From positions 744,001-808,000 of the forward strand of contig NZ_JARUQS010000001.1 in assembly GCF_029767755.1 (NCBI RefSeq): a stretch of DNA of 64,000 nt, given 5' to 3'. The translations under genes and the position numbers were made by a program. The notes below the pieces were generated by a model. The model ran no database searches. It was given only the letters and a program-made list of their open reading frames with translations, and had not been told where the DNA came from. This DNA is from Thiomicrorhabdus sp. zzn3. GTDB lineage: Bacteria > Pseudomonadota > Gammaproteobacteria > Thiomicrospirales > Thiomicrospiraceae. Of this stretch, positions 59,762-64,000 are shown in pieces; positions within the stretch are counted from its first letter, which is position 1, and each line of letters starts with the position of its first letter.

Positions 59762-60673
59762 ATGCAACGTTTGAGTTTTTTATTCACTTTTCCAATGTGG
59801 GCGCTGTTTGCTGCGTTACTGGGGTTCTATTGGCCGCATTATTTTGTAGGGCTTAAAGAGTGGATTGTGCCTCTGTTGATGGTGATTGTATTTTGTACCG
59901 GTTTAAATCTTCGCTTAAGCGACTTTGAACGCGTTTGGTACAAAAAGGAGGTGGTGGCGATCGGAGCCGCCGCGCAGTTTGGCGTTATGCCTTTAGCCGC
60001 GTTTTTATTGTCGTTGGCGTTTGGCTTGTCTGACGAGTGGACCATCGGCATGATGCTGGTTGGGGCGACTGCGGGCGGTACCGCCTCCAGTGTCATGACC
60101 TATCTGGCCCGTGGGGATGTGGCACTATCGGTGAGTATGACTTTGGTATCAACCGTGTTGGCCGTTGGTTTGATGCCGTTGTTGACCTGGATTTACCTCG
60201 ACAAGAGCTTTGATGTACCGGTGTCAGGGATGTTCTTGAGTCTGCTCAAATTGATCCTATTGCCGCTGAGTTTGGGGATGTTGGTCAACCACTTTATGAG
60301 TCACTGGGTGAAACCGGTACGCTTTTTACTGCCACTCTATTCGATGGGGGCAATTGCATTGATCATTGCGACGGTGGTGGCCTTGAATCATATGGAATTG
60401 GCACATGTCGGCGCGATGTTAATTGTTGCGGTGATGCTGCATAACCTAATCGGTCTGTTCAGCGGCTATTGGATTACGCGAAAGTTGGGCTACGATTCCG
60501 TCATTGCGCGGACGGTAGCGTTGGAAGTGGGGATGCAGAATTCCGGACTCAGCGTGGCTTTGGCCTTGCAGTATTTTTCGGCCGCCAGTGCTCTGCCCGG
60601 GGCCTTGTTCAGCATCTGGCACAATTTGTCCGGCGCGTTCTTTGCTTCTTATTGGCAAAGCAAATCCAAATAA
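59762..60673 (+). CDS. Bile acid:sodium symporter (BASS) family transporter
   Basis: Inner-membrane Na+-coupled organic-anion transporter of 303 residues with about nine hydrophobic segments. Family motifs: FCTGLNLRLSDF, GATAGGTASSVMTYLARGDVALS (discontinuous helix) and EVGMQNSGLSVALA. Similar proteins carry pantoate, keto acids or other anions; the substrate cannot be read from the sequence. A perfect palindrome lies over the ribosome-binding position. Confidence 0.9.
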   Translation: MQRLSFLFTFPMWALFAALLGFYWPHYFVGLKEWIVPLLMVIVFCTGLNLRLSDFERVWYKKEVVAIGAAAQFGVMPLAAFLLSLAFGLSDEWTIGMMLVGATAGGTASSVMTYLARGDVALSVSMTLVSTVLAVGLMPLLTWIYLDKSFDVPVSGMFLSLLKLILLPLSLGMLVNHFMSHWVKPVRFLLPLYSMGAIALIIATVVALNHMELAHVGAMLIVAVMLHNLIGLFSGYWITRKLGYDSVIARTVALEVGMQNSGLSVALALQYFSAASALPGALFSIWHNLSGAFFASYWQSKSK

Positions 60674-60773
60674 AACCTTTGCTACCATGCCTCTTTGTTG
60701 CCCCTCTTCAATTAGCAAATTGAATTTTTCCCCAAAGTATATGTAAACATCAGTAATAAATTTGAAAAAATAC

Positions 60774-60802
60774 TTGACTAAAATTAAAGGTTAATTTAAA
60801 GT
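60774..60802 (+). promoter_or_regulatory. Candidate promoter of the riboswitch RNA
   Basis: TTGACT (60774-60779), 17-bp spacer, TAAAGT (60797-60802), just upstream of the aptamer. The -10 match is only moderate. Confidence 0.45.
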
Positions 60803-60819
60803 GCCTCGCCATAAATTTG

Positions 60820-60910
60820 TTGTGCCAAACTTGTTGTGAAGCAAGGACGGAAAGCTAGGGGTCTTAGGGATCAATTCAGTTTAAATCCTAAGATAGCCCG
60901 GTTGCCAAAT
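60820..60910 (+). promoter_or_regulatory. Cyclic-di-GMP-I (GEMM) riboswitch
   Basis: Aptamer sensing c-di-GMP. The sequence follows the GEMM-I plan: GCCAAAC, helix CTTGTT / AGCAAG closed by a GTGA (GNRA) tetraloop (60851 region), the core GGACGGAAAGC (about 60844-60854; consensus GGACGCAAAGC), a second helix TCTTAGG ... CCTAAGA, then TAGCCCGGTTGCC. GEMM riboswitches commonly precede chemoreceptor and c-di-GMP genes. Whether binding turns expression on or off is not visible; no clear terminator abuts the aptamer. Confidence 0.88.
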
Positions 60911-61307
60911 GATCAAGCAGATGCCTGTTTTCGTGGCATTGTGTCTCTGAGTGTAGACAATTTCTAGCTCGTTCACCTTCACTTCATTCTTGTTTGCGCC
61001 TTCAACTTTAATTGAGACTGCAAACAGACTCATCGGTTTAAATATGCCGAATACCTCTTTTTAGATTTAACCGGATTTTAATGTCGGCGGACTTAAGTTT
61101 CGCATCCATTCCTGCTGTCTGTAATCCAACCGATTTACGGTTTACTTCTAAGGGCCGGTCTGCCCATGTTGCAGTAGACGTAGGTCAGCACAATTGCCTA
61201 GGGACGTTGTGATCGTTTGTAAATTCACTGATTGTTCAGTAATAGGTTGAAAATTAATTGGTTTTTAAGTTTTTAATTGCCTTTGGCAATGCAATAAGGA
61301 GAAATGT

Positions 61308-63533
61308 ATGACGGTGAAACTCAGGCTGATACTGGCCTTTTCAGTATTAATCTTGATGACGGTTATTTTGGGTGTGGTGTCGTTGATGAAAATCGATAGC
61401 ATCAATAATTCATTGGATTTGGTGGTGGATGATCGTGTCCCTAAGGTAGTGACACTATTGGGAATCGATCAGCGCCGGGTATCCGTTGAACGGGATATCG
61501 GCCAGCTGATTCAGGCACGAGAACAGGTAGAGCGTGACGAAGCACTTCGCCGAATCGGTGACCGCAGAGCTTTGAATGAAGAGGCCTATCAGTATCTGGA
61601 TGAATCTATTCAGTCAAAAGAGGGACGGGCACTCTTGGCAAAAACGAGTGAAGCCCGAAAGGCGCAAAGTGAAAATTTAAATCGCATGATTGAGTTGGCC
61701 AAGTCAGGGAAAACTCAAGAGGCACTGGATATTTATCTTTCAAAAGAAACACGTGACTTGAGCCGAGCCTATCGAAATGCAGTTCGTGAGTTTGTAGATT
61801 TTCAGAAAGAGTTAAGTAAACAAGCTTCGGATGAAGGGAGTGCCGCTGGCGAGTTTGCCATGAAAATCACGCTGGTTATTTTAGTGATTTCATTAATCGT
61901 CGGTGGTGGATTTTTTGCGTGGATTATGCGTGTGGTGGTGCGTCCGGTGGTGGCCATGCAGGAAGCGATGCAGGAAGTGGTTAAAACTGGACAGTTTGAC
62001 AAGCAGGTTGAAGTGTTGAACCGTGATGAAATCGGCCTATCAGTGGAAGCGCTGAATGCTCTGTTAAAAAGCATGGAATATGCGATTGCTGATGCTAACA
62101 ACACGATTGGCGCATTGGCCCAAGGAGATTTCTCTCAACGCATTACCCGTAACTATGTTGGTGATCTGGACAAACTTAAACTAGGTATTAACAACAGTGC
62201 CGACAATGTCACCAATATTATGAACGAGCTAGGTCGTGTAATGAAGTCGCTTTATGAGGGTGAATTTGATGTTGACGTCAATACTGATGCGCAGGGCGAA
62301 TACCGTAGCATGCTGGTGAATACCTCTGAAGCGATGAATGACATCAACAACGTAATTTCCAACATTAACAGTGTCATGGAAGCGTTGCAAGATGGCCGTT
62401 TCCAGGAACGTGTTAACGTTGAGGCGCGCGGTGAACTGAATTTGATGAAACAGCGCATCAACAGCTCTATGCAGGATTTGGACAGTGCGATGACAGAGAT
62501 TATCCGTGTAGTGGTGGCGCAGTCGGAAGGGGATTTGACCAATACAATCAATGCGCAATATCGTGGCGATTTGGAAACCCTGAAGCTGGCTGTGAATACC
62601 TCGGCGCAGAAACTGATTGAAGTAGTTTCAAAAGCGGTTACCGCATCTAATATCGTTAATGGCGCAGCCGAAGAGGTTTCCCGTGGATCGTCTGACTTGA
62701 GCCAGCGTGTTCAGGAACAAGCCGCTGCGTTGGAAGAAACCTCTGCAACCATGAACGAAATGAGTTCGGCGGTTGAGGCGAATACCAAAAACGCACAGGA
62801 AGCTGCCGGCGTGGCCAATGGCGTGCAGGCGCAAGCCAATGAAGGCAGCGAAGTCATGAGCAAAACCATCGAAGCGATGAACGCGATTCAGGAATCGAGT
62901 CACAAGATTGCGGATATTGTAACCCTGATCGACGGCATTGCTTTCCAAACCAACCTGTTGGCGTTGAATGCAGCGGTTGAGGCGGCTCGTGCGGGTGATC
63001 ACGGACGCGGTTTTGCGGTGGTTGCCGGTGAGGTTCGTGCTTTGGCTCAAAAATCGGCCGAAGCCGCCAAGGATATCAAAAACCTGATTGACGAAAGCGT
63101 TACCCGTATCAGTCAGGGAACGGAGTTGGCTTCGCAATCCGGAGAGATGTTGAATACTATCAACGAATCGATTGATTCGGTTACGCAAATGGTTCAGCAG
63201 ATTGCAGAGGCCTCTTCGGAACAGGCAAACGGCGTGGCTCAGGTGCATGTGGCCATTACCCAGATTGACCAAGTAACGCAGCAGAATGCGGCGCTGGTTG
63301 AAGAAACCACTGCTGCGGCAGAGAGCATGAGTGAACAGTCGAATGCATTGCGTGATGATATGGCATTTTTTAAAACAGGAGCGCCTGCCGTACCTGCTCG
63401 AGTGGAAGCCCGTAAGATCGCGCCGCAGATTGTGAATAAGCCTGTCGATGGTAATTCACCAAAGATGAACTCGAGCATTGAATCCAAGCCGGTTCACAAA
63501 GGCGATGACTCTGACGAATGGAGTAGCTTCTAA
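61308..63533 (+). CDS. Methyl-accepting chemotaxis protein with multiple HAMP repeats
   Basis: Transmembrane chemoreceptor of 741 residues: membrane helix ~6-27, periplasmic helical (4HB-like) sensor ~30-185, second membrane helix ~186-208, HAMP ~210-265, further HAMP-like repeats (~265-430; [35 protein letters not shown]), and the signalling hairpin with tip [37 protein letters not shown] (given in parts: [15 protein letters not shown] near 545, [12 protein letters not shown] near 568). The C-terminus DEWSSF resembles the xWxxF tether for CheR/CheB. Controlled by the c-di-GMP riboswitch upstream; overlaps the next cheW. Confidence 0.94.
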
Positions 63534-64000
63534 TGGATATGGAAACTCAAAGAACTCAACAAGTGCCGGATACTGACGTTTTGAAAAAAGACAGGCGATC
63601 AGGCCAGTATCTGACATTTTTACTTGCCTCAGAGACTTATGGCATTGATATTTTACGGGTTCAGGAGATTCGCGGTTGGGAAAAAACTACCCAACTGCCT
63701 AGCGTACCAGATTATGTCAAAGGGGTGATCAATATGCGTGGGGCGGTGGTACCCATTGTGGATTTGCGTGAACGTTTTCACATAGGGCAAGCAACCTACG
63801 ATGAGAGCACTGTTGTGATTATCACAAAGATGGAAAGCGGATCTGTTGAGAATTTGCACAAAACTATCGGTTTGGTGGTTGATGGGGTCAGTGATGTTGA
63901 GGATATAGATCTTGCAAGTTTGCATGAGGCCCCATCATTTCAATCGGACGAGCGAGTCAGTGATGAGTATATTCAGGGGCTGGCCTCTATTGGTGATAAG
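63533..64000 (+). CDS. cheW: CheW-like coupling protein (cut by window edge)
   Basis: Starts at ATG 63533, overlapping the MCP stop (TAATG), so it is translationally coupled to the receptor. 156 codons are visible with no stop before base 64000. After a ~25-residue polar N-terminus comes a CheW domain with ILRVQEIRGWEKTTQLPSVP and VVPIVDLRERF. It is a close paralogue of the CheW at 47.6 kb. It likely links this chemoreceptor to a CheA kinase beyond the window. Confidence 0.93.
   Translation, partial: MDMETQRTQQVPDTDVLKKDRRSGQYLTFLLASETYGIDILRVQEIRGWEKTTQLPSVPDYVKGVINMRGAVVPIVDLRERFHIGQATYDESTVVIITKMESGSVENLHKTIGLVVDGVSDVEDIDLASLHEAPSFQSDERVSDEYIQGLASIGDK

Follow-up and report, generated by a model that had tools for sequence, protein, structure and literature searches.

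A c-di-GMP-I riboswitch in the leader of a Thiomicrorhabdus chemoreceptor gene, with a candidate anti-ribosome-site block close behind its aptamer

Related systems and the layout of the leader

Riboswitches that place a receptor gene within reach of c-di-GMP are best represented here by Bc1, a c-di-GMP-I riboswitch of the Bacillus cereus group that is frequently found ahead of MCP genes, and in Bacillus thuringiensis the start site of the Bc1-headed mcpE lies 267 nt before the AUG, with a long expression platform (PMC11218506). The leader analyzed here resembles Bc1-mcpE in carrying the same aptamer class before a chemoreceptor gene, in its long leader, and in its long platform, and since Bc1-mcpE has both features, neither GEMM-I aptamers before receptors nor long platforms are new. 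The differences are that Bc1 works through two intrinsic terminators together with an effect on translation (PMC11218506), whereas no intrinsic terminator (a GC-rich hairpin and then a run of T) was found between 60319 and 61600 in our leader, and that the spacer is longer here. A second comparison is the metA SAM-II riboswitch of Sinorhizobium meliloti, in which the Shine-Dalgarno sequence lies within the riboswitch and the start codon is 74 nt away (PMC9373788). There, as would be the case here, the riboswitch sequesters a Shine-Dalgarno sequence and influences how a more distant downstream start codon is translated, but in the present leader the proposed sequestering block lies behind the aptamer and the ribosome-binding site (RBS) lies next to the gene. 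Within the genus, other Thiomicrorhabdus c-di-GMP-I leaders, ahead of DUF2202 and small secreted-looking proteins, have a near-identical aptamer, a hairpin, and an RBS-complementary block, with the start codon 92-154 nt after the aptamer versus 398 nt here. A literature search returned no paper mentioning both Thiomicrorhabdus and a riboswitch. What this locus adds to the described systems is a probable platform: a block specific to the genus, located beside the aptamer, that would be able to reach the ribosome site across the spacer.

Our main reading, to which we give a probability of roughly 0.55, is that the chemoreceptor-cheW mRNA begins with a c-di-GMP-I riboswitch, which regulates translation of the receptor through a block that covers the ribosome site across a loop. 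The features concerned are as follows, in coordinates of the window, by which we mean the whole 64 kb stretch of DNA that was analyzed.

60774-60802, + strand: sigma-70-like promoter TTGACT-17-TAAAGT (consensus match, matrix score 10.0)
60814-60909, + strand: c-di-GMP-I (GEMM-I) riboswitch aptamer (Rfam RF01051, cmscan)
60906-60970, + strand: 3' strand of P1, then a variable hairpin region ahead of the block (sequence comparison, folds)
60971-61008, + strand: conserved pyrimidine-rich block, proposed anti-ribosome-site (anti-RBS) element (PWM, duplex energy)
61009-61284, + strand: unconserved, loop-like rest of the spacer (no similar sequence, no Rfam match)
61285-61318, + strand: ribosome-binding and start region, proposed partner of the block (duplex energy)
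61308-63533, + strand: chemoreceptor gene (4HB_MCP_1, HAMP, MCPsignal), 741 aa (Pfam)
63533-64000, + strand: cheW, running off the window (Pfam CheW, E 6.2e-32)

An earlier note on this DNA, made from the letters alone, had recognized a GEMM-I aptamer by its landmarks, and the covariance model bears it out. Using cmscan with Rfam 15, RF01051 matched with E 1.8e-11 and 69.2 bits, where the gathering score is 35, in an alignment that covers the full length of the model (1-87/87) and has no non-standard pairs marked. All of the landmarks are in place, the GNRA tetraloop on P2, the first helix, reading GUGA in this alignment, the conserved core GGACGGAAAGC, and the closing segment TAGCCCGG. The aptamer is closed by P1, which reads AUUUG (60815-60819) with CAAAU (60906-60910), and the pairing is kept in Thiomicrorhabdus cannonii as AUUUG with CAGAU; the total length of 96 nt is explained by a P3 that is longer than usual. 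This is the sole Rfam match within the whole window and the top-scoring of the 31 c-di-GMP-I aptamers in 32 genus genomes; its own genome has one other. On this evidence the aptamer ahead of the receptor gene is real, conserved, and of an ordinary class, with binding of c-di-GMP predicted.

Promoter, aptamer, and gene all lie on the same strand, the promoter being assigned by consensus match only. Its −10 element ends 11 nt before the aptamer, and it was the only promoter-like site returned by the scan within 60300-61600; its score was reached by 0 of ~86 random 110-nt stretches of the window. These scores come from a rough sigma-70 matrix, and background statistics were drawn from the 64 kb window and from genome searches. 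The receptor gene starts at ATG 61308 behind a Shine-Dalgarno sequence AAGGAG (61296-61301), and cheW overlaps its stop codon; upstream lies a gene of the sodium/bile-acid-symporter family (59762-60673). That the aptamer is linked to the chemoreceptor, as had been suggested, holds in a second species as well: T. cannonii HH3 has a receptor orthologue 77% identical to the 741-aa receptor, preceded by the same order of promoter, aptamer, and gene, with a spacer of 260 nt and a promoter TTGACC-17-TATATT that scores 12.2 and lies 8 nt before its aptamer. By eye, a CheW-like frame follows the T. cannonii receptor and the end of a symporter-like gene is recognizable upstream. Plasmid relatives were searched for and none were found. 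In the sulfur-oxidizing Thiomicrorhabdus the locus may represent a conserved point at which c-di-GMP acts on chemoreceptor supply, apart from the usual flagellar control.

A pyrimidine-rich block and the ribosome-binding site

The spacer between aptamer and start codon, put earlier at about 400 bases, measures 398 nt (60909 to ATG 61308). Other leaders in the genus with an identified target have spacers of mostly ~30-160 nt, with top values of 221 and 260 nt, all measured from the aptamer nearest the gene. The present spacer is therefore long but not isolated, since in two genomes of another genus of the family the aptamer sits 326-334 nt before prfC (identified by eye). No clear gene is seen between aptamer and prfC in these two genomes.

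A hairpin followed by a pyrimidine-rich block with the consensus GTCYCTTCCCWCATTTTTGTGCCTTCAATTTT, 25-45 nt behind the aptamer, is common to eight other leaders of the genus. A PWM of this block, trained on six other leaders with the window excluded, has its top match over both strands of the 64 kb at 60976-61008 (17.1 bits; the next match scores 8.6), and the T. cannonii receptor leader contains a gapped version at about +51. As a pattern searched against 63 family genomes, the block gave exact matches behind c-di-GMP-I aptamers in six of six cases, and a reversed control pattern gave no match in the same genomes. The block of the window differs in sequence from that of the sister leaders. 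Complementarity between the 3' strand of P1 and a hairpin is a usual way of coupling an aptamer to its platform, and several sister leaders show it: their P1 3' strand (CAAAUAA) can also pair with the hairpin's 3' side (UUAUUUG), a relation that is less clear in the window. An expression platform is thus probably present in the spacer, judging from its sequence, and the idea that it would lie far outside the normal distance needs amending: the spacer is long, but a platform-like block stands at the usual ~60-100 nt after the aptamer.

In these leaders the block is approximately the reverse complement of the Shine-Dalgarno sequence and start codon of the gene that follows (for example CAUUUUU with AAAAAUG, CCUUC with GAAGG). 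The pairs that we propose for the window join 60972-60977 with 61313-61318, 60979-60981 with 61309-61311, 60985-60991 with 61297-61300 and 61304-61306, and 60994-61000 with 61285-61287 and 61291-61294, a register that differs from that of the sister leaders. When sister leaders are folded without the aptamer, the block pairs mostly with the Shine-Dalgarno and start region, and in 9 of 10 leaders, the window's included, no other segment of the leader pairs with the start region better than the block does. In a 10x10 matrix of blocks and start regions, the window's duplex of −22.0 kcal/mol is the best in its row and the third in its column; with shorter segments of 41 nt, its duplex of −18.8 kcal/mol is the best in both. 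Summed over the related leaders, each block with its own RBS gives −183.6 kcal/mol versus −151.0 +/- 10.1 for permuted pairs (p = 0.00065), a value that is optimistic because the leaders are related by descent. Taken singly, the window's block-RBS energy is equalled by 10.5% of 57 other ORF starts, is matched at −18.8 kcal/mol by 3.9% of random segments, and has p of about 0.14-0.16 against shuffles. In an unconstrained full-length fold the window's block pairs with the aptamer and not with the RBS, and in T. cannonii a segment at about +142 pairs with the RBS better than the block does. Together, the position and complementarity of the block suggest that an element close behind the aptamer can probably cover the ribosome-binding site of the gene.

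On this reading transcription would start just before the aptamer, and the block, ~60-100 nt behind it, would base-pair in the cell with the receptor gene's Shine-Dalgarno sequence and start region, closing a loop of about 285 nt. Whether the block could cover the ribosome site would then depend on binding of the ligand at the aptamer, so that control would be translational, by long-range sequestration of that site. It is possible, although we hold this only tentatively, that a cassette of aptamer, hairpin, and anti-RBS block that had spread through the genus was recruited to the chemoreceptor gene, with its register shifted to the gene's own start region across the ~285-nt loop.

The direction of such a switch was approached through the cost of opening the RBS, with the closed aptamer modeled by leaving it out of the fold. 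In 19 of 20 comparisons the closed aptamer went with a higher cost than the free one, as would be expected if c-di-GMP represses the gene. Unconstrained folding thus leans towards repression, but the control with shuffled aptamers gives this lean no support: in most leaders shuffled aptamers lower the opening cost by a similar amount, the real aptamers altering it no more than shuffled ones do, and any upstream sequence tends to have this effect. Switching by pairing between block and aptamer was also considered and rejected, its energies being no better than those of shuffles.

Other readings of the spacer

The strongest competitor to translational sequestration is that the riboswitch acts on transcription, with a C-rich, G-poor stretch serving as a Rho-loading site that is exposed or hidden by the ligand, and Rho terminating in the untranslated spacer. 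In its excess of C over G, the 80-nt stretch that begins at 60955 ranks in the top 7% of the window, and an excess in the top 5% is found at the same place in the T. cannonii leader. The lack of an intrinsic terminator in the spacer would suit this reading, as would the E. coli ribB riboswitch, cited in PMC11218506, an established case of Rho termination linked to translation under riboswitch control. The excess is modest, however, and Rho loading needs no conserved exact sequence complementary to a start region. We regard Rho control as the less probable of the two, although the Rho and translational mechanisms may also be combined.

If, on the other hand, a separate promoter near the gene supplied the receptor mRNA, then the reach of the riboswitch would be limited to a brief leader transcript or to a small fraction of the message. 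A candidate exists in the spacer site TTGAAA-19-TTTAAT (score 8.1), which ends 31 nt before the start codon, and an 18-nt imperfect repeat is shared between the region upstream of the first promoter (60750-60767) and this site (61236-61253). Its score is unremarkable beside the 6.8 +/- 1.6 of random 398-nt stretches, the best promoter-like site in the spacer standing 0.8 SD above them; its spacing of 19 is poor, and the T. cannonii spacer reaches only 7.3 at its best. By these comparisons a weak second promoter near the gene is possible but unsupported, and a separate promoter supplying all the receptor mRNA, the counter-case named in the earlier note, is improbable. A sigma-28 promoter for the receptor was also tried, and no spacer site rose above chance (best 7/12); in the same check, no clear common motif was found upstream of other receptor genes.

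The earlier note had allowed the spacer to hold the platform, a small RNA, or a tiny ORF; the first of these is favored by the block complementary to the start region, and the others are not supported. The segment 61009-61284 has no similar sequence in the 32 genus genomes and no other copy in its own genome; a repeat or mobile insert was rejected on the latter ground. A second or degenerate aptamer was rejected, with no further Rfam match at E up to 10, as was a structured RNA (z = 0.03 for the spacer alone and −0.58 with the aptamer). None of the spacer ORFs is above 43 aa or has a clear Shine-Dalgarno sequence, and a hidden gene was dismissed, neither the 43-aa frame nor a 77-aa frame in T. 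cannonii having a Pfam match. With no conservation, excess structure, Rfam match, or convincing ORF, the remaining ~285 nt reads as a loop.

That the spacer encodes a small protein or small RNA is very improbable: a 77-codon frame resembling a signal peptide does open in the T. cannonii spacer from an ATG inside P1, but the same ATG in the window opens a frame that ends after only 13 codons, no Shine-Dalgarno sequence stands ahead of it, the spacer is without conservation or excess structure, and the T. cannonii frame can be regarded as a by-product because the pyrimidine-rich block, read as codons, would give its hydrophobic run in any case. The ATG itself (60909-60911 in the window) lies in the 3' strand of P1 in both receptor leaders; at its position, TAATA or TAG is found in most of the sister leaders that have the block.

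c-di-GMP-I aptamers elsewhere in the genus

The related leaders, about ten in number, share one aptamer but differ in their targets, and so form a set suited to direct tests of translational control and of how far it reaches. The other c-di-GMP-I aptamer of the same genome (at 970934-971020 of its contig C1) precedes a secreted-looking DUF2202 protein, and DUF2202-type targets recur in several species of the genus. Receptors under c-di-GMP-I aptamers are of a second type in two other genomes of the genus (G006, with leader L101, and G002, with leaders L100 and L102), where receptor genes with PAS-like domains of the Aer type, assigned by eye, are preceded by aptamers at 96-221 nt. Tandem c-di-GMP-I aptamers stand before secreted-looking proteins of 106-114 aa in T. 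chilensis (L091), Thiomicrorhabdus sp. ZW0627 (L093), and a third genome (G014, L096), the 106-aa protein of ZW0627 having no Pfam match. In another genome (G015, L108), three c-di-GMP-I aptamers occur within 2.2 kb on one contig, and at least two of the three lie just before short secreted-looking proteins.
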